From assembly GCF_010500615.1 (NCBI RefSeq), contig NZ_JAAGNX010000001.1:372001-436000 (forward strand): a stretch of DNA of 64,000 bases, in the 5' to 3' direction. Numbering within the stretch: position 1 is the stretch's first letter; the number at the start of each line of letters is the position of its first letter. Both the position numbers and the translations under genes were made by a program. The DNA comes from Oceanipulchritudo coccoides. Its GTDB lineage: Bacteria; Verrucomicrobiota; Verrucomicrobiia; Opitutales; Oceanipulchritudinaceae. This document shows, in pieces, positions 4,982 to 15,686 of this stretch. The notes beneath the pieces were generated by a model. The model was given only the letters and a program-made list of their open reading frames with translations. It was not told the origin of the DNA and did not search any database.

Positions 4982-6871
4982 ATGAAATACAAATTCAGTA
5001 GCTCGATAATTCTCGGATCCATTCTTGCCGCACTCCTTGGGGGGTGCTCCGCAGGGGATCCTGAAACAGCGAACACCTCGGGGGATTCACTTGCCGAAAA
5101 GAGCTTTGTTGCTCCGGGAGAAAAGGATGAATTCTACCTCTTCTATTCGGGTGGACATTCTGGACAGGTTTTTGTCGCTGGTATTCCCTCCATGCGGCAC
5201 ATAGTGACCATCCCTGTCTTTTCCCCGTATCCAGGAACTGGATACGGATTTGATGATGAATCCCGTGCCATGTTGGGGGAATACACATGGGGAGATGTCC
5301 ACCACCCCGGACTTTCCCAGACAGACAGTCTGTATGACGGACGCTGGCTTTTTGTGAATGACAATGCAAACAACCGCGTCGCCCGGATTGATCTCCGGGA
5401 CTTCAAGACCAAGCAGATCCTTGGGCCGATTCCGAATTCAAGCGGCAATCATGGGTCGTCATTTGTCACCGAAAACACGGAATACATTCTTGTCGCAACG
5501 CGGTTCTCCGTTCCTCTCCCTAAAGGACGTGTGGCTCCAATGGAATCGTATGCAGATGAGTTCAACGGCATGGTAAGCGGTATCAAGGTGGATCAGGAAA
5601 CTGGTGAGATGAGTCTGGGTTGGCAGATACTGACGCCGCCGTTCAACTGGGACTTGGGATCCACAGGAAAAGGCCCAAGCAGCGGATGGGCATTCTGGAC
5701 ATCCTATAACACGGAAATGGCCCATGAAACTCTGGAAGTGAATGCCAGTCAGCGGGACCGTGACTATGCTGCCTTTGTGAACTGGAAATCCGCTGAACAA
5801 GCCGTAGCGGATGGCAAAGCCGAAATGATTGACGGCGTGCCGGTCTTGGATCCGTCGGCCGTGCCCGGAGTCATGTACTTCGTTCCCGTCGGGAAATCCC
5901 CGCATGGCGTTGATACCGATCCCTCCGGCCGATGGATTGTTGCCTCCGGGAAGCTGCAGCCAACGACAACGGTTTATGATTTCGAGAAGGTTCTGGCGGC
6001 CATTGAAGCGGAAGATTTTCAGGATACTTTCCGGGGCATCCCCGTACTCAATTATGATGCGATAGCGGAGGGAGAGGTTCCGGTGGGCCTTGGACCTCTG
6101 CATACACAGTACGATGGTGAAGGGAATGCCTACACATCGCTTTACATTGAGTCAGCTGTGGCAAAGTGGAAGCTGCCTCCCTGGACAGAGGAGCAGCGTG
6201 CGGACATGGAAAGTATCGTTACCGACAAGATGCCCGTACACTTTAATATCGGACACCTTGTTGTCGGGGGCAGTGACACCCGTGAGCCCTATGGGAAATG
6301 GCTGGTCGCCATGAACAAGCTGTCGAAGGGACGCCATGCAAATGTCGGGCCCTCACAGCCCGAATCCAGTCAGCTCATTGATATCAGCGGCGAGAAGATG
6401 GAAATGGTCTTTGAAGCCTACACGGAACCGGAGCCGCACTTCGCACAGATTCTCAAAGTGGATGCCATTGAACCTATCGAGGTATATCCTAAGGCAGAGA
6501 ATCATCATCCGCATGCAGTCTGGAGCCTTGATGAGGGAACGACCTGGCGTGAAGGGGATACGGTCCATGCAAAGATAGTTGCCGTGCGCAGCCGCTTCGG
6601 ACCGGAAAAGATTGAAGCTAAAGTTGGCGACAAGCTCGTCATTCACGTCACCAATATTGAGCAAACCTCCGACATGATTCATGGATTAGGGATTTCGGAG
6701 CATAACATCAATGTGGTCATTGATCCCGGGGAAACCAAAACCATCACCCTGGACCTTAAGAAACCGGGTGTGTTTCCATTCTACTGCACCAACTTCTGTT
6801 CCGCACTGCACCAGGAAATGCAGGGGTATCTTGTAGTGGAACCAGCGGGTGAAACGGCAATGTCCCAATAG
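4982..6871 (+). CDS. nosZ: Nitrous oxide reductase, clade II (lipoprotein type)
   Basis: NosZ reduces N2O to N2 in the periplasm. The 629-residue protein has an N-terminal seven-bladed propeller with CuZ histidines (DVHHPG, His107/108) and a C-terminal cupredoxin domain. The CuA motif FYCTNFCSALHQEM is complete (Cys602, Cys606, His610, Met613), with a further His in DMIHGLG. The export signal is a Sec lipoprotein signal (LLGGC, Cys22), without the twin arginine of clade I enzymes, which places it in clade II. AAAGGAAAG provides a good ribosome site. It is the second gene of the cupredoxin-nosZ-nosB-nosD-nosF-nosY operon. All key residues seen are intact, so an active enzyme is expected. Confidence 0.97.
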   Translation: MKYKFSSSIILGSILAALLGGCSAGDPETANTSGDSLAEKSFVAPGEKDEFYLFYSGGHSGQVFVAGIPSMRHIVTIPVFSPYPGTGYGFDDESRAMLGEYTWGDVHHPGLSQTDSLYDGRWLFVNDNANNRVARIDLRDFKTKQILGPIPNSSGNHGSSFVTENTEYILVATRFSVPLPKGRVAPMESYADEFNGMVSGIKVDQETGEMSLGWQILTPPFNWDLGSTGKGPSSGWAFWTSYNTEMAHETLEVNASQRDRDYAAFVNWKSAEQAVADGKAEMIDGVPVLDPSAVPGVMYFVPVGKSPHGVDTDPSGRWIVASGKLQPTTTVYDFEKVLAAIEAEDFQDTFRGIPVLNYDAIAEGEVPVGLGPLHTQYDGEGNAYTSLYIESAVAKWKLPPWTEEQRADMESIVTDKMPVHFNIGHLVVGGSDTREPYGKWLVAMNKLSKGRHANVGPSQPESSQLIDISGEKMEMVFEAYTEPEPHFAQILKVDAIEPIEVYPKAENHHPHAVWSLDEGTTWREGDTVHAKIVAVRSRFGPEKIEAKVGDKLVIHVTNIEQTSDMIHGLGISEHNINVVIDPGETKTITLDLKKPGVFPFYCTNFCSALHQEMQGYLVVEPAGETAMSQ

Positions 6872-6899
6872 CCGGATGCTCTGATTAATGAATTAAGCA

Positions 6900-6947
6900 G
6901 CCTGGCAACGGAACCGTCATATTCGGCGGTTCCGTTTGCGGGCCAGC
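6900..6947 (+). other. Stem-loop between nosZ and nosB
   Basis: AACGGAACCG (6907-6916) pairs with CGGTTCCGTT (6927-6936), and outer arms CTGGC / GCCAG extend it. There is no T-tract after the stem, so it is more likely an mRNA-stabilising or partly attenuating element than a full terminator. Confidence 0.6.
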
Positions 6948-6961
6948 TTTGAAGGTAAGAA

Positions 6962-7615
6962 ATGAAGAACCCGCTGAAATCATCATCCGAGACAAATCTT
7001 CCCTGGTGGCGGCGTGAATTGCGATTCCTTGACCGTGCACTCAATCCGCTGTCAAGAGGCCTAATGCTCGTGGCAGCAGTATTGTTTGCCCTTGTTGTCC
7101 TGTTTCCGCTCTGGCGCATCACCTTGGTGGCCCCCCAGTACCAGGAGGGCCTTCGCTTGACCATTTACGCCTATCAGCTTGTGGGTGGAAACGGTGGGCA
7201 GGATCTTGTCGAGATCAACAACCTCAATCACTACATTGGAATGAAACCGATTGAGGAGTCCGACTTTGTCGAGATCACATGGCTCCCTTTCGTGCTGGGG
7301 ATTTTCGTGATTCTTTCTCTGCGGGCGGCCGTTCTTGGTCGAATCAGCCAGGTTATTGATATCCTGGTGTTGTTTACCTATCTGGGCCTGTTTTCCTTGG
7401 GCTTGTTTTACCATCGTCTGTACACTTACGGGCATGACCTGGATCCAAAAGCGCCGATGACGATTGAGCCCTTTACACCAGTTATCATCGGGAAAAACAA
7501 AATCGCGAATTTTGTCCAGTGGAGTTACCCGTCTGTTGGCGGTTGGCTTATGCTGCTCATTCCTGTCGTTCTTGTCCTCGCGGTCTGGTTTTCCCGGAAG
7601 GGGAGGAGAGCATGA
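6962..7615 (+). CDS. NosB-like integral membrane protein
   Basis: A 217-residue protein with about four membrane helices (about 33-52, 107-123, 131-150, 191-211). Between helices 1 and 2 is an external loop with LNHYIGMKPI, and later PFTPVIIGKNKIANF; both are conserved blocks in the small polytopic protein that follows nosZ in clade II clusters (called NosB in Wolinella). Its role is unknown but is linked to the nos electron path or maturation. AAGGTAAG is the ribosome site. Its stop overlaps the nosD start (ATGA), so the two are translationally coupled. The assignment depends on position and these motifs. Confidence 0.68.
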   Translation: MKNPLKSSSETNLPWWRRELRFLDRALNPLSRGLMLVAAVLFALVVLFPLWRITLVAPQYQEGLRLTIYAYQLVGGNGGQDLVEINNLNHYIGMKPIEESDFVEITWLPFVLGIFVILSLRAAVLGRISQVIDILVLFTYLGLFSLGLFYHRLYTYGHDLDPKAPMTIEPFTPVIIGKNKIANFVQWSYPSVGGWLMLLIPVVLVLAVWFSRKGRRA

Positions 7616-8910
7616 TAAGGGCGGTTGTGGTCAGTCTCTTATTAATAGGATGCACCGTGGATCTGATGGCATCCACAGTAGTAGGCAGCCTGCAGGCGCG
7701 CGTTGATGCAGTACCTGAAGGAGGCACACTTGTTTTGGACAGCGGAACCTATGAAGGGCCCTTGCGTATCGACAAAGCCATGACAATTGACGGAAAGAGT
7801 AAGGCTGTTATCGACGGAAAGCGTTCCGGTTCCGTCATTACCGTGAATGCTCCCGGCGTACGTATCCGCAACCTCTACGTGCGCAATTCCGGGCTCAGCC
7901 TGGAGGAGGATGATGCGGGGATACTTGTGCGGGCCGACAGGGCAGTGCTGGAGGGGAACCGCATTGAGAGTTGCCTGCACGGAATCTACCTGAAGAAGGT
8001 TACCATCGCCGAGGTGCGCGGAAACACCATTGTCGGAGCTGCGACCGAGCTCGCCAGGACTTCCGACGTCCTCAGTACCGGTCTGGATTTCGATGGTGGT
8101 GACCTGCTCTGCGCTGTCGGTGAGTTGGACGTCAATCGTCGTGGCAACGGTATCCATGCATGGAACTCACGGAATGTCCTTCTGGAAGAAAACGTCATCT
8201 CGCACACAAGGGACGGAATATACTTTTCCTTCACTGATGAGTCGGAGGTTCTCGGAAACCGGGTCACCGATTGTCGTTACGGCCTTCACTACATGTACAG
8301 CGACGGAAACACGTTTGCCCGCAACCGTTTTTCAAGAAATGCGGCCGGTGCGGCCTTGATGTATTCCGGGAGGCTCCTTGTTGAAGGGAACGAGTTTTCA
8401 GGCAACCGCGGGAAACGTGCCTACGGGGCTTTGCTCCAGTCCGTGGATGCCTCAGTCCTGAAAGACAACCGGTTCATTAATAACACGGTTGGACTCTACA
8501 GTGAAAACGCGCAGGACAACGAACTCGAGGATAATGTAGTTGGAAAAAACTACATTGGGTACCGGATTGGCGGCAGCTCCAGGGGGAACCGGCATTTCCT
8601 GAACCACTTTCAGCAGAACATCCACAATGTCGAACTGGCTGGTGAAGGAAAATACAATGAGTGGGCTGTTGAGGGGCGGGGAAACCGCTGGGGCCTGTCC
8701 AGCGTTCCTGATCTGGATGGCGATGGGGTAGGAGAGTTTCCCCACCGTGAATCGGATCTCCTTGGAGGTCTCAGGCAGCAGTTTCCCATCGCAGGCCTGC
8801 TTTCGGGCAGCCCGGGCCTCGAGCTGATCCGCTTCATTAATGAGCGCAGTCCGATCCCCGGTCTCCGCACCGTAGAGGATCCTCACCCATTGACTAACGA
8901 ACATGATTAA
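7612..8910 (+). CDS. nosD: NosD periplasmic beta-helix copper/sulfur maturation protein
   Basis: About 432 residues from ATG 7612, which overlaps the nosB stop; the open frame begins earlier, at 7519, but that part lies inside nosB. A signal peptide (about 1-22) is followed by right-handed parallel beta-helix repeats rich in G-N-x-I/F and N-x-(F/V) turns (about 40-360), the CASH/NosD architecture. NosD works with the NosFY ABC transporter in assembling the CuZ [4Cu:2S] cluster of NosZ. The C-terminal segment with DLDGDGVGEFP is typical of the family. Its end overlaps nosF by 8 nt. Confidence 0.93.
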   Translation: MIRAVVVSLLLIGCTVDLMASTVVGSLQARVDAVPEGGTLVLDSGTYEGPLRIDKAMTIDGKSKAVIDGKRSGSVITVNAPGVRIRNLYVRNSGLSLEEDDAGILVRADRAVLEGNRIESCLHGIYLKKVTIAEVRGNTIVGAATELARTSDVLSTGLDFDGGDLLCAVGELDVNRRGNGIHAWNSRNVLLEENVISHTRDGIYFSFTDESEVLGNRVTDCRYGLHYMYSDGNTFARNRFSRNAAGAALMYSGRLLVEGNEFSGNRGKRAYGALLQSVDASVLKDNRFINNTVGLYSENAQDNELEDNVVGKNYIGYRIGGSSRGNRHFLNHFQQNIHNVELAGEGKYNEWAVEGRGNRWGLSSVPDLDGDGVGEFPHRESDLLGGLRQQFPIAGLLSGSPGLELIRFINERSPIPGLRTVEDPHPLTNEHD

Positions 8911-9604
8911 TCTTAGTGACATTCGCCTGAAGCTGGACCGGCAATCCGTTTTGAAGGGATTCGACCTCGATGCGGAGAGTGCTTGCGTTTCCTTGGTAGT
9001 GGGCCCGAACGGAGCCGGAAAATCCAGCTCACTTAAGGTGGCATGTGGCCTCTGGAGGCCGTCTTCCGGAGCGGTGCTTGTGGATGGAAGGGATATCACC
9101 GATTGTCCCCGCGAGTACCGCAAGTACGTTGCCTACCTTCCGCAGTCTCCTTCTTTTCATCCCCGATTAACCGTTGCACAAGTGGCTGAATTTTATGCTC
9201 GAATCGAGCGATGCTCCCCGGATGAAGTCGAGTACGCATTGGAATGCTTCGGCATGGATGCCTGCTCCGGAAAAAGGACCGGAAACCTGTCAGGAGGATT
9301 CCGTCAACGGCTTGGTCTTGCCGTGTTATCCCTTTCAAAGGCACCAGTGCTCCTCCTTGATGAGCCCGGCTTGAGTCTGGATCCATTCTGGCGGGAACGG
9401 CTGCAGGAATGGCTCAGGGAGGAGGCCGCATCCGGCAGGACACTCATTGTCGCGACCCATCTTCTCGCTGAATGGGAAGGTAAGGCCGATCGCTGTTTTC
9501 TTTGCGACGACGGCCGCATTGTCGGTCAATTGAATCCGGAATATCTCCGACAGGCTTTTCCGGCTCCCTTGGACCAGAGAGAAAGGAAGGTGGCCAATGA
9601 CTGA
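8903..9604 (+). CDS. nosF: NosF ABC transporter ATPase
   Basis: A 233-residue ABC ATPase with Walker A GPNGAGKSS (about residues 34-42), signature NLSGGFRQRLG (about 128-138) and Walker B VLLLDEPGLSLD (about 151-162), followed by an H-loop (ATHLL). It powers NosDFY, which supplies sulfur and enables copper loading for the CuZ site of NosZ. It overlaps nosD and nosY by 8 nt each, indicating tight coupling of the three subunits. Confidence 0.93.
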   Translation: MINLSDIRLKLDRQSVLKGFDLDAESACVSLVVGPNGAGKSSSLKVACGLWRPSSGAVLVDGRDITDCPREYRKYVAYLPQSPSFHPRLTVAQVAEFYARIERCSPDEVEYALECFGMDACSGKRTGNLSGGFRQRLGLAVLSLSKAPVLLLDEPGLSLDPFWRERLQEWLREEAASGRTLIVATHLLAEWEGKADRCFLCDDGRIVGQLNPEYLRQAFPAPLDQRERKVAND

Positions 9605-10394
9605 CCGGATCGTAGTTGGCTGGAGGTTTCTCGTTGCACTGGTTTGCCGGGAGAGGCAGGCCGTCATGGCGAGTCGTGTATCATGGTCCTTCGGGATCGG
9701 CTGCCTGTTGTGGGGATTGGCCGGTAGCCCTCTTTTTGGTATCGGCAGAGCAGATACCGTTGTCTGGTTTCTCCTTCCCGTACTCCTTTACGCCGTTCCA
9801 CCGGTAGCATTGCTTTCGGGAGTTGTCGCCTGGCAGGGCGATGCTGGAGAGGAGGAACTCATCCAGACGCGCCTGCCCTCGCCTTTGACCCGGCTTCTCG
9901 CAAAGTGGGTCACATGGACTTTGCTTCTTGAATTGGCCACTTTGTGTATGCTGATTCCGCTTCTGCCAAGTGCTGTTGATCCTTCTGCTCTCCTGAGAAT
10001 CTGGCTGTTCGCCGGAGGAGAAATCTCGGTATTTGTGGCATTCGGTCTCGTCATTGGCCGCTTTTGCAAGGATCCCCTGTTGGCGTATTCAAGCTCCTTG
10101 ATTATCGGATTTTTAATGGTAGCCGGAGGCGGGCTGGTTGCTTACGTTGCCGCGTGGCAGCCGATGATTCAGCGGTTTCCGGATCTCTGGACCTTGATTC
10201 TTATGCTGCATCCCGTCGAGTCCCTTCGTGTGTGCCTCGTTTATTCAGTCGAGAATCTTCCCTTTGACGCACGTACTCTTCCTCCCATTACTTCATTCTG
10301 GTTGCAGAATTCCGGATTGTGGTATCTCGGCTTATCCTTGACCTGGTCATTTGTGGCCCTGCTCGTGACCCGGTTCAAACCCGGAAAACCGTAA
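9597..10394 (+). CDS. nosY: NosY ABC transporter permease
   Basis: A 265-residue membrane protein with six predicted helices, matching the ABC-2 permease size of NosY. It contains DAGEEELIQTRLPSP after the second helix, the NosY-type coupling loop, and LHPVESLRV near the C-terminus. It is the last gene of the nos operon. No nosL, nosR or nosG/H/C gene follows within the window. Confidence 0.9.
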   Translation: MTDRIVVGWRFLVALVCRERQAVMASRVSWSFGIGCLLWGLAGSPLFGIGRADTVVWFLLPVLLYAVPPVALLSGVVAWQGDAGEEELIQTRLPSPLTRLLAKWVTWTLLLELATLCMLIPLLPSAVDPSALLRIWLFAGGEISVFVAFGLVIGRFCKDPLLAYSSSLIIGFLMVAGGGLVAYVAAWQPMIQRFPDLWTLILMLHPVESLRVCLVYSVENLPFDARTLPPITSFWLQNSGLWYLGLSLTWSFVALLVTRFKPGKP

Positions 10395-10757
10395 TAAATG
10401 TCACCATAAGCCGATTGGCGATCGGATCGTGATGACGATCGTATAGCGCAAGACGGCAAAGAAACCGAATTATCTCAAAACTTTGATAAGGAGTGGTGCT
10501 TGTAACCATTCTGCAACCGGAAATCTTGACCGCCCTGCATCCCTCTATTGATGCGCCTTTCCGGGTTTCTGTCTTGAATCCCCCCCTCTCCGCCATTAAA
10601 CTGTCGCAAGTGTGTTGAATACCAGTAACTTGCGAATCACAAATGCCTTAACAGGCCGCCGCAGGCACGACAAATCACAACAAATCACGACTTTCGTGGG
10701 CCTTTTTGCCTTGATTATGCCTCAACTGACCTTGACTGGATCTTGACTGGGGACGGG
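10395..10757. other. Intergenic junction of nos operon and island
   Basis: No gene is seen. The stretch holds the imperfect palindrome TTATC...GATAA (10470-10489), the first tRNA-Ser-3'-like repeat (10576-10597), a tandem ACAAATCAC pair near 10670-10690, TTATGCCTC at 10715-10723, and two close direct copies of CTTGACTGG (10731-10739 and 10742-10750). Direct repeats beside an attachment-like core could be recombinase arm sites; this is inference. Confidence 0.5.
10576..10597 (+). repeat. tRNA-Ser 3'-end-like repeat, copy A (left island edge)
   Basis: GAATCCCCCCCTCTCCGCCATT resembles the T-loop, acceptor strand and CCA of tRNA-Ser (CCTCTCC-G-CCA). No 5' acceptor strand GGAGAGG or paired T-stem lies upstream, so it is not a functional tRNA. 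Copies B (17315) and C (20127) have the same orientation. Confidence 0.7.
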
Positions 10758-11186
10758 TTATTTTCTCTCACGGCGGCACGGCGAGCACGGAGGGAGTTGT
10801 CCATTGATGATTCTGGTGATCCCGTCTTTCATGAGGGCTTCGCCAAAGTTCAGAAGGTAGCCGAGTTTGAGATTGGATAATTTGAGGTAGGTGAGAAGTT
10901 GTTTTTTGTGGGCTGGGTTCGTGCGTTCTACAGACTTGAGTTCCAGGATTACTTTCTCCTCAACGATCAGGTCTGCCCGGAATCCCTCATCCAGTTGAAT
11001 GCCTTTGTAACGAATAGGAACGACGACTTGGCGTTGCGCGCTCAATCCAGCTTCCTCCAGAGCATGTGCCAATAACACCTCATAAACGGATTCCAGCAGT
11101 CCCGGGCCCAGATCCCGATGCAGCGAAAAGGCGACATCCAACATCCGATCAGCAATTTCATTTTCATGTAGTGAAGACATCCCCAC
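10758..11186 (-). CDS. GxxExxY protein (PD-(D/E)xK-like fold)
   Basis: A 142-residue protein with the family motif GLLESVY (about 28-34) and the nuclease-like core DLIVEEKVILELKSVE (about 73-88), where D-E-x-K could be a PD-(D/E)xK site. GxxExxY proteins are widespread and of unproven function. The C-terminal codons (PPCSPCRRERK) are formed by a 27-bp repeat at 10764-10790 that recurs inverted at 11248-11274, about 60 bp upstream of the start. The gene is thus enclosed by inverted repeats like a small mobile cassette. Start could also be codon 3 (MSSLHENE). Confidence 0.85.
   Translation of the reverse strand: MGMSSLHENEIADRMLDVAFSLHRDLGPGLLESVYEVLLAHALEEAGLSAQRQVVVPIRYKGIQLDEGFRADLIVEEKVILELKSVERTNPAHKKQLLTYLKLSNLKLGYLLNFGEALMKDGITRIINGQLPPCSPCRRERK
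10764..10790 (+). repeat. Left inverted repeat of GxxExxY cassette
   Basis: TCTCTCACGG CGGCACGGCG AGCACGG pairs with 11248-11274 at 26 of 27 positions. It lies inside the 3' end of the gene. Confidence 0.85.
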
Positions 11187-11247
11187 ATCATCTCCTGCTT
11201 CCCGATTTCAAACTACCCATAAAAACACTCAAAATCAGGCATTGACG

Positions 11248-11274
11248 CCGTGTTCGCCGTGCCGCCGTGAGAGA
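11248..11274 (-). repeat. Right inverted repeat of GxxExxY cassette
   Basis: Reverse complement of 10764-10790 with one mismatch (position 11253). It lies about 60 bp upstream of the gene's start. Confidence 0.85.
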
Positions 11275-11325
11275 TAAATCCGAGCAATTAGACCTATGAT
11301 TGGCCAATCGCTCTGGTAGAGTGTA

Positions 11326-11583
11326 ATGGCCATGAAAATACACGCCGATCACCAACCCTACCGCAAGAAGCCCTACGCCGCCCGGTGGTATGAGGGCAAA
11401 GGCCAGCGAAACAAGTTCTTCGCCTCGGAGGCGGCCAGGGACGAGTTCATCGCCCAGTTCAAGCAGACCGCCCAGCGTGCCGACCCTGCCTTTCCGACCA
11501 TCGAGCCACACAAGCTGATCCGCTGGCATCAGGCCATGGCGATTGCGCCAGAGGCGGATCCGGTCGAAGTCTTCAAGTTCTGA
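11326..11583 (+). CDS. Small protein resembling a recombinase arm-binding domain
   Basis: An 85-residue basic, aromatic-rich protein: HADHQPYRKKPYAARWYEGK, then QRNKFFASEAARDEFIAQF. The order 'YxARWxxGxxRxKFFxSExxRDEF' resembles the N-terminal AP2/arm-binding strand module of tyrosine integrases from the same phylum. The frame stops after EADPVEVFKF, so it has no catalytic domain. It may be the truncated relic of an island integrase or a stand-alone small DNA-binding protein. No family name can be given with certainty. It lies between the GxxExxY cassette and a PAS-domain remnant. Confidence 0.5.
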   Translation: MAMKIHADHQPYRKKPYAARWYEGKGQRNKFFASEAARDEFIAQFKQTAQRADPAFPTIEPHKLIRWHQAMAIAPEADPVEVFKF

Positions 11584-11602
11584 GTGATAGAGTGATTCCA
11601 CG

Positions 11603-11750
11603 GGGGATGTGACTGCCTATCGCGTGGAACGCAAATTCCAGCGAAAAGATGGCAGCATCTTCTGGGGAGATATTTCCGTACGGGCACTGCGTGGAGCGGA
11701 TGGAGTGAGCCAAACAGTGTTGAATCACTCCTTCTCTCTATTGAGCTATT
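11603..11750 (+). pseudogene. PAS-domain fragment
   Basis: An open frame without a proper start reads AYRVERKFQRKDGSIFWGDI then SVRALRGADG, a clear match to the C-terminal half of a PAS/PAC sensor domain, before diverging and stopping near 11750. No kinase or other domain follows. It is the leftover of a sensor protein gene in the island. Confidence 0.6.
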
Positions 11751-11772
11751 AAAATCGATTAGCCTAAGTTTC

Positions 11773-14466
11773 TCACAGATTATTCATCACAAAGTTATCG
11801 AACTTAGCCTCCTGCGACTTACTGGTGTAAAATCCAGCCTTCCCGGATGACAAAGAACTGTCACTTCCCGAGATAACTTCCAACCCATCGACTAAACCAA
11901 GCAAGGAAGTTCCGTTCAATTCAAATCTGTATTCATTATAGATACCTGTTGAAGGGAGCGGAGTGCTTCCAGATTGAGCAATAATCGATGCATTGTCTCC
12001 AACTATTTTAATTAATTGGTAAGTGGCTGAACTCTTATCGAAGATGAAAGCATAATAGTTAGATGCATCTTGATAGCGAGCGACGATACCGACTTGAACT
12101 TCACCTGGTTTATTTTTTTTGGACCATGAATCGACCTTCAACTCAGCGCTCACTTCCACATTGGTATGATCTGAAGCAGTGTTAAAGCTAAGATCGGAAC
12201 TGTTTCCGGCTGAAGTTTCGTAGGTATAATCTACCCCGTCTGCGACAACTGCCCAATTTCCTTCAGCTTCGGTCCAGCCATCGCTAATCCCATCAGAAAA
12301 ATCATCCGATAAATCATCAGCAGGCGGTGGTGGTGCCGAAGAATTATCTGTGATAAAGTCGTCAAAAATAGCCATTTGAGGAGCGCCTGAGAAAACACCG
12401 GTGTAGCCTTGAGTGAGAGTGCTATCTGTCGCTGCAGTGACTAAGACTCCATCCAAAAATCCTTCAAGAGCGCTTCCGTTAAGTCGGAATTCCAATTGAT
12501 ATTCCTGGCCCGGATTTAAAGTGTAGGAACTAGCTGAGTTAGCCAACACGGTAATTGGATTTCCAGTTCCTGCTCTCATTATAATTCGAAATTTCTTCAG
12601 GTAATCATCATAAAAAAATGCGTAATGGTTATCGACATCAGTTAGCCGGCCAAGCAACCCAGCTTGAGCTTTGCCGGGTAATGTAGCAGGGTCCCAAGTA
12701 TCTACCCGCACAGTCGATACCACAGAGTAATCAGATCCCCAAGTCTCCTCTGCATAAAGCCGATTCATATTTGAGAGTCCTTCAGTTTCCAATGCATAGT
12801 CCAATCCATCGGCAACAGTTTGACCTCCTCCAGAGAGAGCTATCCAACCGATGCTTGTACGATGATCGAAGTCATCAAAGAAGGAGTAATGTTGAAAGCT
12901 TAATCCTTGAACATGATTGACCGTGAAACGACCCTCCGCCGCCGACTTGACAGGTGTCCCATCGATGTATAAATTTGTAAAGGATATATCTTCCATGAAG
13001 GAATCGGTCGAATTCAACCCTGTTAGCAGGTTATCCAGACTTTCCGGCGCCATTGGGGCATCGACGATGATGTTAGAAAATTTCACATTTCTAAAGACAG
13101 CATTGCTATTGGTCATCTGCATGAAAAAAATAGGTCTGTATCGTGTCCCATTATTGCTAAGTCCGTAATTAGGATCTTCCACATGAATATTCGAAATGTA
13201 GATATTTTCCACTGTTTCCCCAGTGTTGATTCCTCTTAGATTAAAAACGGAACCGCCTTGCCCACCTAGTAACTCAGCTCGATGGTTATATATGACACTC
13301 GAATCACTCACACTTGTACCAGATCCTCCAGCTCCTGCTGTAAAGATAAAAGAAGATCCGTTGGCGTCGTTCCAAGTGGTTATGTTCCTAATAACGACAT
13401 CCTGCTGTCCATTTGCGATGTAAATGCTGTCGTCTTGTGTTCTAAGAAAACAATCTTCAACAATCGCATATTTCTGAACGCCTATTCCATCGGAATTATT
13501 TCGCCAGTTTTGGGTTTTTATATTGCGGATAATATTGGGAGTAGTTGCCCCGTTTATATTGCCCATAGATACAGAGTGAAAAGGAGGATCTACAATAGTT
13601 AACCCTTCCAATACGATGTTGCTGTTAAGGCCTTGTATGTTAATCATGCGATACCAATTTCGTTGAGCTTGAGGCCATTCTTTTGGAGGCCAATTAACTT
13701 GCTCACCTGAGAGGACTCCATAGCCCCATATTTTGACATTATCAACAGTCTGAGTCGCATAATTAGTATCTAAAACAACCATTCCCCCATAAACAAAGGA
13801 ACCTCCTTCCAGGTAATATCTTTTATTGGATGCGATTTGATAGCCTGGCCCTAAGTTGTGGACTCCCGGTTTAAAATGCAAAGTGGTCCAAGTCTCTGAA
13901 CCCGTAGCCGCAGGTATAAGGTCTCCGGGATTAACAACAAGGACGTTGGGATCATTTTCAACAGGTACGTCCTGCTCATAGGAATTTGCAAATATGCTTA
14001 AGCTATGATCGAATGGATTCGCATTGGGTTTGCCGTCGATTTCTATCGCTAAATTTGCAGGTTTCGACAGGGAAAAAGTGGCGGTATTGTTGTTGATCGT
14101 CACCGGAATATTATAAGCCGTTGGGCGCACGATAGCGCTACTGATGGGTCCTGTTAATTTTGTAACCCGGATCTGAATAGTGCCCGAAAATTCAAAATTA
14201 GTGTAGGAGGCAGTCCATCCCGCGAGACTCAAATAATAGCCTTGAAGGTCGGGATCACTGTTGTCTTTAGCAGTTGTCATATAAGTGAAAGAGTGCGTCC
14301 AATTCTGTCCGTCAGCAGAGAGTTCAACTTGATACTTATCCGAAGGACTTATTCCTGCCGGCTGAGGATACACTGTGTAACTTTGCGCCGACACAAAGAC
14401 GGCGGAAACGAGGGTATAAAGGATTGCAAGAAAGCAACCGAAATGAGGTATAGATCGTTTTAACAT
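11773..14466 (-). CDS. Secreted beta-helix glycoside hydrolase (GH28/GH49-like) with two C-terminal sandwich domains
   Basis: An 897-residue secreted protein. A signal peptide (about 1-27) precedes an N-terminal beta domain (about 30-200), then a right-handed parallel beta-helix (about 200-520). The helix contains NNSDGIGV and TQDDSIYI, the N-x-D and D-D acidic pairs that form the catalytic centre of GH28 and related families, plus HFKPGVHNLGPGY, as in GH49 dextranase/isopullulanase-type enzymes. The GH28 G-H-G motif is not obvious. Two related jelly-roll repeats follow (about 530-715 and 725-895), each with 'DDF.....W', LLGRL/IVARY, 'NHYAFFYDD' / 'NYYAFIFDK' and a final FDDF/FDNF. Substrate is unknown, probably an algal or plant polysaccharide. 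The gene is visibly more A+T-rich than its neighbours, suggesting transfer. Confidence 0.68.
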   Translation of the reverse strand: MLKRSIPHFGCFLAILYTLVSAVFVSAQSYTVYPQPAGISPSDKYQVELSADGQNWTHSFTYMTTAKDNSDPDLQGYYLSLAGWTASYTNFEFSGTIQIRVTKLTGPISSAIVRPTAYNIPVTINNNTATFSLSKPANLAIEIDGKPNANPFDHSLSIFANSYEQDVPVENDPNVLVVNPGDLIPAATGSETWTTLHFKPGVHNLGPGYQIASNKRYYLEGGSFVYGGMVVLDTNYATQTVDNVKIWGYGVLSGEQVNWPPKEWPQAQRNWYRMINIQGLNSNIVLEGLTIVDPPFHSVSMGNINGATTPNIIRNIKTQNWRNNSDGIGVQKYAIVEDCFLRTQDDSIYIANGQQDVVIRNITTWNDANGSSFIFTAGAGGSGTSVSDSSVIYNHRAELLGGQGGSVFNLRGINTGETVENIYISNIHVEDPNYGLSNNGTRYRPIFFMQMTNSNAVFRNVKFSNIIVDAPMAPESLDNLLTGLNSTDSFMEDISFTNLYIDGTPVKSAAEGRFTVNHVQGLSFQHYSFFDDFDHRTSIGWIALSGGGQTVADGLDYALETEGLSNMNRLYAEETWGSDYSVVSTVRVDTWDPATLPGKAQAGLLGRLTDVDNHYAFFYDDYLKKFRIIMRAGTGNPITVLANSASSYTLNPGQEYQLEFRLNGSALEGFLDGVLVTAATDSTLTQGYTGVFSGAPQMAIFDDFITDNSSAPPPPADDLSDDFSDGISDGWTEAEGNWAVVADGVDYTYETSAGNSSDLSFNTASDHTNVEVSAELKVDSWSKKNKPGEVQVGIVARYQDASNYYAFIFDKSSATYQLIKIVGDNASIIAQSGSTPLPSTGIYNEYRFELNGTSLLGLVDGLEVISGSDSSLSSGKAGFYTSKSQEAKFDNFVMNNL

Positions 14467-14612
14467 GAGGTAATAATTTAGGGTGAGTGAAATAGGTAGC
14501 TTTGGATTCGAAAGTTTATCACATTTGATCTTTATTAGATTAGTGAATTTGGCTCATTAAACAGAGTTATTAGGTCATATAATGGATTTACTGATAGGAA
14601 TTTGCTTTTTCC

Positions 14613-14652
14613 GGTCAGGCACAAAAAAGGGGTCATGTCGTTATGTTTGCAA
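14613..14652 (+). repeat. Left inverted repeat of RAYT element
   Basis: GGTCAGG-CAC followed by a 30-bp segment (14623-14652: AAAAAAGGGGTCATGTCG...) that is perfectly repeated in inverted orientation at 15667-15696. The outer GGTCAGG pairs with CCTGACC at 15698-15704. Confidence 0.9.
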
Positions 14653-14681
14653 ATATCCGGATTTGATGTATCAATTATACG

Positions 14682-15686
14682 ATGCCACGCAGTCTACGTA
14701 TTGAGAAAAAGAATGGGGTCTATCACATCATCAACCGTGGGAACTACCGCCAAGATGTGTTTATCAACGAAGGCGCCCACCAATCCTTCGAGGAGTGTTT
14801 GTTTGAAACCTGCGAAAAGTGCGGGTGGATACTCGAAGGGTTTTGTGTCATGACTAATCACTTCCACTTAGTCGTACGCACGCCGAAGGGAAATTTGATC
14901 TATGGCATGAAGTGGCTGCAATCGACCTTTGCGAATCGCTACCATAAGTTTCGAAAAGTCCACGGGAAGTTATTCCAGGGGCGCTACAAGAGCTTGATCG
15001 TCGAAGAAGACGGCTATCTGGGCGCCCTGCTCCACTACACACACTTGAATCCTGTCCGAGCAGGCATGGCCGATGTCGCGGGGCTGCGCGATTACCGCTG
15101 GTCGAGCTATTGGTATCTGAACCACCCTGCGAAGCAACCTGTGTTCATGGATTGTTCAGGGGCGCTGCTCGCCGCCGGTGGATTGGCTGACACGAGCTAT
15201 GGCCGCTGTAAGTATGCGGACTATCTCAATTGGCTCACGAGCGACAAAGCGGCTCAGGACGAAATGGCATTTGATAAGATGTGCCGTGGCTGGGCATTGG
15301 GAACTAAAGATTTCAAAAAAGCGCTCATCGCAGAAGCCGCGGACACGAGTGAAGATGAAGACGAGCCAACCAAGAAAGTCCCTCGCTACGACGGAGCCAC
15401 ACTTCAAGAAGCGAATGAGCTCAGGTGGGAACTGGTGCTCGAACAATGTATGGAGGCGCTCAATAAAACGCCTGATGATTCGACAAATGAAATGAAGTCA
15501 GCGGATTGGAAGATTCTGATCGCTGCTGTCTTGAAATGTAAAACCAGCGCCACGAATGTGTGGATTGCAGATCAGCTGAAGATGGGAGTCCCCCACGCAG
15601 TCAGCCGCTATGTCGGTATTTTTAGGCAGAGCAGAAAAAACGAGGAGGCTTCATTCCAAGAGCTGATTGCAAACATAACGACATGA
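14682..15686 (+). CDS. REP-associated tyrosine transposase (RAYT, Y1/HUH)
   Basis: A 334-residue Y1 transposase of the TnpA_REP type. The HUH metal site is NHFHLVV (His60, His62) and the nucleophile is likely Tyr119 in LLHYTHLNPVRAG. Also present are YHIINRG near residue 14 and LFQGRYKS near 97. The C-terminal extension (about 190-334) contains an acidic stretch and a DNA-binding-like helical tail. RAYTs nick and rejoin single-stranded DNA at REP-like palindromes. The gene sits inside perfect 30-bp inverted repeats; its stop codon lies inside the right one. All visible catalytic residues are intact, so the unit may still be mobile. Confidence 0.92.
   Translation: MPRSLRIEKKNGVYHIINRGNYRQDVFINEGAHQSFEECLFETCEKCGWILEGFCVMTNHFHLVVRTPKGNLIYGMKWLQSTFANRYHKFRKVHGKLFQGRYKSLIVEEDGYLGALLHYTHLNPVRAGMADVAGLRDYRWSSYWYLNHPAKQPVFMDCSGALLAAGGLADTSYGRCKYADYLNWLTSDKAAQDEMAFDKMCRGWALGTKDFKKALIAEAADTSEDEDEPTKKVPRYDGATLQEANELRWELVLEQCMEALNKTPDDSTNEMKSADWKILIAAVLKCKTSATNVWIADQLKMGVPHAVSRYVGIFRQSRKNEEASFQELIANITT

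Follow-up and report, generated by a model that had tools for sequence, protein, structure and literature searches.

Two kinds of minimal bacterial element come closest to the one described here. In the RAYT/REP systems (REPtrons; TnpA-REP and REP/REPIN, where REP stands for repetitive extragenic palindrome), one small gene lies between inverted copies of a short dispersed repeat, singlets and inverted doublets of the repeat are scattered through the genome, and enzyme and repeat appear to co-evolve (PMC8266576, PMC3116915). The intervening sequence of the Coxiella burnetii 23S rRNA is a selfish element of 428 nt that carries an S23 open reading frame (ORF) and is excised by RNase III; intervening sequences of this kind are units of about 430-520 bp with one small ORF, inverted repeats and three tandem heptamers before the start codon (PMC4990558). 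These features of layout, dispersal and size are shared by a cassette of about 518 bp (positions 10759-11277) from Oceanipulchritudo coccoides, identified in a stretch of 64,000 nucleotides, hereafter the window (contig NZ_JAAGNX010000001.1, positions 372,001 to 436,000), in which a gene of the GxxExxY family (TIGR04256 / PF13366, PDDEXK_3) is enclosed by two inverted repeats, or arms. However, RAYT is an HUH/Y1 enzyme, whereas the GxxExxY protein has a predicted PD-(D/E)XK fold and matches PF13366, with no match to Y1_Tnp (PF01797); REP is a single palindrome, often with a GTAG/CGTC-type tag, whereas the arm consists of three direct tandem heptamers and is not palindromic; and the S23 ORF codes for a four-helix bundle, lies in 23S rRNA and is removed by RNase III, whereas the window cassette codes for another fold and is not in rRNA. 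With an enzyme other than HUH and an ORF other than S23, the cassette falls in neither class. A sequence-only reading of the window had proposed a minimal mobile cassette carrying a PD-(D/E)xK-like protein, and the arms found at most other GxxExxY loci, the empty sites and an exchange with breakpoints at the arm edges now make it very probable that the GxxExxY gene and its arms constitute such an element.

The window cassette and its counterparts

In the window, the GxxExxY gene occupies positions 10758-11186 on the minus strand, with a GTG start at 11186 or an in-frame ATG at 11180. The left arm (10761-10790, plus strand; TTTTCTCTCACGGCGGCACGGCGAGCACGG), downstream of the gene, contains the words CACGGCG/CACGGCG/CACGG in the array CACGGCG-G-CACGGCG-A(g/a)-CACGG, and the right arm (11248-11277, minus strand), upstream of the gene, is its inverted copy, 28 of the 30 nt matching (93%). 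Within this pair lie the 27-bp repeats from which the sequence-only reading had started: 10764-10790 (TCTCTCACGGCGGCACGGCGAGCACGG) and the reverse complement of 11248-11274 (TCTCTCACGGCGGCACGGCGAACACGG) are identical at 26 of 27 positions. The arm pattern has two matches in the window against 0.00 expected from 100 dinucleotide shuffles, and the whole genome yields these two exact copies and one further match with three mismatches. The left repeat, as also claimed, does code for the end of the protein (...CSPCRRERK), with the stop codon (10758-10760) at the cassette border; nevertheless, this role is judged incidental because in a same-genus orthologue (L015) the protein terminates ahead of the arm. 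The cassette has the terminal inverted repeats enclosing a gene that characterize an insertion sequence, and none of the known transposase types (DDE, HUH, serine, tyrosine) was recognized in its protein, which matches only PDDEXK_3 and, below threshold, Cas4.

Arms at other loci were scored as the best inverted match between the upstream and downstream flanks of the gene, with a score of at least 26 taken as a pair. The multi-phylum sample comprised 80 GxxExxY loci, 75 of them usable, and was seeded with the window subfamily because a diverse profile of 13 proteins was too diverged for scanning, so that the word statistics lean towards that subfamily. Pairs were present at 63 of the 75 loci, compared with 6 of 375 control sites of the same geometry in the same loci (1.6%), and at 120 of 142 non-redundant loci (85%) when all subfamilies fetched, from many phyla, were considered; repeats comparable to those of the window, whose search at other GxxExxY genes had been recommended, are therefore the rule. 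PIN-domain genes of the same phylum had none (0/30). That an ordinary gene merely happens to lie between similar sequences, by chance or through an assembly artefact, might be suspected from the existence of some armless GxxExxY loci, but this reading is refuted by the zero expectation in shuffles and the low rate at control sites, and the independent recurrence in many phyla also speaks against it.

The arms have a common architecture, three tandem copies of a word of about 7 bp separated by spacers of 1-3 nt. The word is mostly CRCNNAG, and the forms seen include CGCAAAG, CACAGAG, CACGGAT, CACTGAT and CAGGAT among others, with CACGGCG in the window; it varies from cassette to cassette, but within a cassette both arms have matching words, and arm similarity increases with protein identity (Mantel Spearman 0.45, p 5e-4). 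The gene itself is common, being found in 134 of 240 sampled genomes of the phylum with up to 13 copies per genome; O. coccoides has three and genomes of the same family 0-7 each.

Occupied, empty and exchanged sites

The surroundings of the window cassette allow its absence to be recognized in relatives. The left flank (10576-10758, plus strand) consists of a tRNA-Ser 3'-end remnant (GAATCCCCCCCTCTCCGCCA) and about 160 bp ending in TTGACTGGGGACGGG, and is homologous to the flank found at tRNA-Ser/integrase loci of same-genus genomes, while the right flank (11287-11583, plus strand) begins with the region upstream of a truncated integrase gene and continues with the initial 85 codons of that gene (11326-11583). 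At an empty site of the same genus (G007:C106; ...TTGACTGGGGACAGG|AAATCTTCAAACGCCGCCTGATTGATCTATGATTGG), some 18 bases separate the left flank from the right flank (from 11287) and the cassette is missing, and the integrase, of which 85 codons remain in the window, is intact (394 aa; PHROG_1, E 2e-17). Three other loci that have the flank on the integrase side likewise lack the cassette, namely G006:C385 and, each with its tRNA-Ser intact, G007:C334 and G005:C167, so that the simpler reading is an insertion that placed the window cassette next to an integrase gene on one side and a tRNA-Ser attachment-site remnant on the other. At a further locus, G005:C71, the left junction is that of the window, which makes it probable that both stem from one insertion; on the right this locus is different and adjoins a transposase-like ORF.

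Empty sites, which the sequence-only reading had suggested looking for in relatives, were found in two Nostoc species as well. One Nostoc intergenic site, with flanks about 88% identical, holds a cassette in six species and none in two others; the right border of the empty sites coincides with the outer arm edge and the left one lies about 40 bp beyond the arm. The occupied sites hold two cassette types. In G273 the flanks are nearest to G018 (91.9% and 93.3%), whereas arms and gene are nearest to G271/G269/G272 (left arm 100% vs 79%, gene 89% vs 74%, right arm 97% vs 81%); the segment of foreign ancestry is best placed at 671-1157, with breakpoints at 664|671 and 1157|1174 and arms at about 669-697 and 1120-1152 (permutation p 2e-4, Fisher 2e-21). 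The reverse mismatch between flank and cassette is seen in G268, and the two cases together therefore identify the arm-gene-arm segment as the unit of exchange. An additional survey of 80 kb of four Nostoc genomes revealed shared solitary arms and no clean new empty site. Comparison of these loci shows that arms and gene form one unit, which is present, absent or exchanged and whose boundaries coincide with the outer arm edges or lie close to them.

The G268 cassette also carries an identical 26-bp insertion in both arms, indicating that an element's two arms are copied either from each other or from one template. This greater likeness of arms within one element than between related elements may also be expected of an S23-like element acting at the RNA level, in which the arms would pair in the transcript, the stem would be processed, for example by RNase III, insertions would be tolerated, and spread would occur via RNA or rare recombination. 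The three tandem heptamers upstream of the Coxiella S23 ORF (PMC4990558) favour this possibility, as do the S23-like four-helix-bundle genes of the same phylum, which also lie between inverted word arrays. It is nonetheless unlikely, given that the window cassette lies between tRNA and integrase remnants, outside rRNA, that a putative nuclease with an intact motif is conserved, that solitary arms without a partner are common, and that an Rfam search of window positions 9000-15000 found no family match. As an observation in its own right, the four-helix-bundle genes (TIGR02436; loci L225-L254) have such arrays at 23 of 30 loci, built from a different type of word (AGTGGCTAGTGG, TAGGCATTAGGC, AAGCTTAGAGCTTA), pointing to a common architecture in which the words are specific to the protein.

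Dispersed arms and a putative nuclease

Arms also occur away from the gene, with up to about 200 gene-less copies in one genome. The genome-wide statistics rest on counts of a strict pattern, CRCNRAG three times, which covers one word family only, and its absence from a genome is for that reason not informative. Strict copies number 84 in Dolichospermum, 105 in Desmonostoc and 70 in Planctomycetales ZRK34, against 0-1 for the reversed control pattern. They stand singly, frequently without a partner, form hairpin-like pairs or are arrayed around a cassette, and arm pairs no more than 250 bp apart among the listed places were convergent in 17 cases, the orientation of the cassette, and divergent in none; as in RAYT/REP, an inverted dispersed repeat thus surrounds the gene and gene-less doublets exist. 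In the region of L058, one GxxExxY gene (L118) stands within an array of hairpin-like arm pairs with a period of about 91 bp on both sides. Among the 240 genomes of the phylum, many of them fragmented metagenome-assembled genomes and some of the gene-negative ones incomplete, strict triple-word repeats were present in 90 of 134 with the gene and in 13 of 106 without it, and 2060 of 2117 copies (97%) belonged to GxxExxY-bearing genomes; the co-occurrence is significant under permutation of gene labels within families (p 5e-5). Window-type arms were also observed in a sibling genome (G005), where two of them form the core palindrome of a miniature inverted-repeat transposable element (MITE) of about 150 bp with termini ATACCAATTCAAAATAG / CTATTTGAAAGTGGTAT, present in at least five copies (L157, L160, L161, L162, L164).

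The location of these arm pairs inside a MITE with unrelated terminal repeats raises the alternative that arms are mobilized in trans, by a RAYT/Y1 transposase, an integrase or general recombination, the GxxExxY gene being cargo such as a defence or addiction gene. A Y1_Tnp gene 3.4 kb from the window cassette and the weak similarity of the protein to Cas4 and a defence-associated PDDEXK profile could be cited in the same sense, but arm words track the GxxExxY protein, repeats and gene co-occur across genomes, and PIN, another common small-gene family, lacks arms, all of which render mobilization in trans improbable. A regulatory role has even less to recommend it. Arms near start and stop codons could serve as operators, terminator or attenuator stems, or sites for nucleoid proteins. 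Such a reading was given in 2009 for Geobacter metallireducens, where triple tandem TCTCCGTS[Y] repeats in inverted pairs make up class 2 of the 'predicted global regulator binding sites'; the relevant part of that publication takes them for regulator sites and mentions no link to GxxExxY (PMC2700814). Simple operators, however, would not give two long matching arms on both sides of a gene, the arms move together with the gene, an empty site exists, and gene-less pairs occur elsewhere, so that this function appears very doubtful.

The motif order D...ExK...QxxxY is that of RecB/Cas4-type nucleases. In the window protein, which scores 139 bits against TIGR04256 (cut-off 35) and 137 bits against PF13366 (cut-off 22), the corresponding residues, numbered from the ATG start, are D70, E80 and K82, invariant in 54 GxxExxY sequences, and Q94 and Y98, conserved at 90% or more; the glutamate of the GxxExxY motif is E30. 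The AlphaFold2 model (pLDDT 90.7, pTM 0.83) has a mixed alpha/beta nuclease fold whose top Foldseek match is Cas4 SSO0001 (4ic1, E 1.3e-4), and VIA aligned it with 4ic1_G at Z 9.8 over 104 residues (root-mean-square deviation 5.5), most other Z values being middling. Lambda-exonuclease-like enzymes were also among the best solved-structure matches, and a PDB sequence search gave no match. The predicted fold and motif order are thus shared with Cas4/RecB and lambda-exonuclease-like nucleases (4ic1, 4r5q, 3syy), although the GxxExxY protein is shorter (about 125 aa) and has about 20% identity to the best structure. The PD-(D/E)xK assignment of the sequence-only reading is in this way borne out, and the model supports a RecB/Cas4-like PD-(D/E)XK fold and hence a putative nuclease. 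The gene is under purifying selection, as deduced from dN/dS, the ratio of nonsynonymous to synonymous substitution rates, of about 0.1 between the window gene and its sibling (dN 0.075, dS 0.80) and mostly 0.1-0.2 among Nostoc genes. Rpn proteins are also of the PD-(D/E)XK type. They belong to a different Pfam family (YhgA-like, PF04754) and are reported to be linked to RecA-independent DNA transfer (PMC5350276).

Other functional assignments were considered. A toxin-antitoxin or defence module was rejected, there being no partner gene within the cassette and only weak similarity to Cas4 and to a PDDEXK profile associated with defence (reverse transcriptase) systems; the ORFs inspected around the window cassette included no cas genes. 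A phage or plasmid module was dropped because no GxxExxY relatives were found in IMG/VR or phages and only 7 in 72,556 plasmid records.

Several observations weigh against a self-mobilizing element. About 15% of the non-redundant loci (22/142) have no detectable arm pair within 250 bp, so that the orthologues without repeats which would have spoken against the sequence-only reading do exist as a minority, although most loci have arms. No target-site duplication is visible between the window and G007:C106, whose flanks have diverged to 76-85% identity. With six of eight species occupied, the Nostoc empty sites can be read by parsimony as losses, some 40 bp outside the left arm is missing there too, and the single G273 exchange may be a homologous recombination whose breakpoints happen to lie near the arms. 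Unlike the situation with an active insertion sequence, near-identical copies within a genome were not seen, save for one pair (L094/L174 in G021; 99.8% over 433 bp), and this is not an arm-to-arm copy, since the identity begins at the start codon, immediately interior to the upstream arm, and runs on to 18 bp beyond the downstream arm, leaving the upstream arm unduplicated. Thirteen genomes without a detected GxxExxY gene hold some repeats, and the GxxExxY protein could be cargo and not the mobilizing enzyme.

Covariation of protein and arms, their co-occurrence at the genome level and the intact active-site motif nevertheless indirectly suggest that the GxxExxY protein acts on the arms, a possibility raised by the sequence-only reading. 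We propose that the protein would recognize the word array of its own element, probably either as a multimer in which each word is held by one subunit or in the form of a hairpin or cruciform of the paired arms, and would nick or cut there, after which repair or replication would copy or move the arm-gene-arm unit. Copying of this kind would account both for the spread of gene-less arm pairs as non-autonomous passengers and for the likeness of the two arms of an element. The cassette would then work like a RAYT/REP system or an S23 intervening sequence with a different enzyme. The complete account, a mobile element plus a nuclease acting on its arms, is favoured with moderate confidence.

Genomic neighbourhood and implications

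Just upstream of the window cassette, nosZ (nos_propeller and cupredoxin domains) is followed by nosD-, nosF- and nosY-like genes (4982-10394, plus strand). A second tRNA-Ser-like 3' end, at G000:C1:370917-371013, about 11.6 kb upstream and just outside the window, matches window positions 10501-10597 at 82%; ARAGORN found no intact tRNA in either of the two stretches scanned, and two attachment-site remnants may delimit an island that includes the nos cluster. On the other side, a gene for an 897-aa protein with a glycosyl hydrolase 28 match (11773-14466, minus strand; E 1.5e-9) is followed by the IS200-like Y1_Tnp gene (14682-15686, plus strand), whose 334-aa product has a RAYT-like sequence.

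No paper linking triple-word repeats to GxxExxY genes was found in the open-access literature, and the TAACTGA heptamer repeats of Beggiatoaceae (PMC4679880) differ from the arms in word and layout. Tentatively, GxxExxY cassettes might form, across many phyla, a class of their own among autonomous minimal mobile elements. A stand-alone nuclease of the Cas4/RecB-like PD-(D/E)XK type would mobilize itself and its gene-less relatives via co-evolving arms, and the four-helix-bundle genes with their word arrays would be a parallel class of this architecture. GxxExxY is a widespread bacterial family of unknown function, and its cassette appears to be a tiny mobile element that has gone largely unrecognized. 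A testable role is thereby gained for a very common family of putative nucleases, and also for dispersed triple-word repeats that were noticed earlier but read as regulator sites. If the nuclease does drive the movement, PD-(D/E)XK enzymes would join the HUH, DDE, serine and tyrosine enzymes as stand-alone mobilizers of minimal elements, and arm words would be predictable from the protein sequence.
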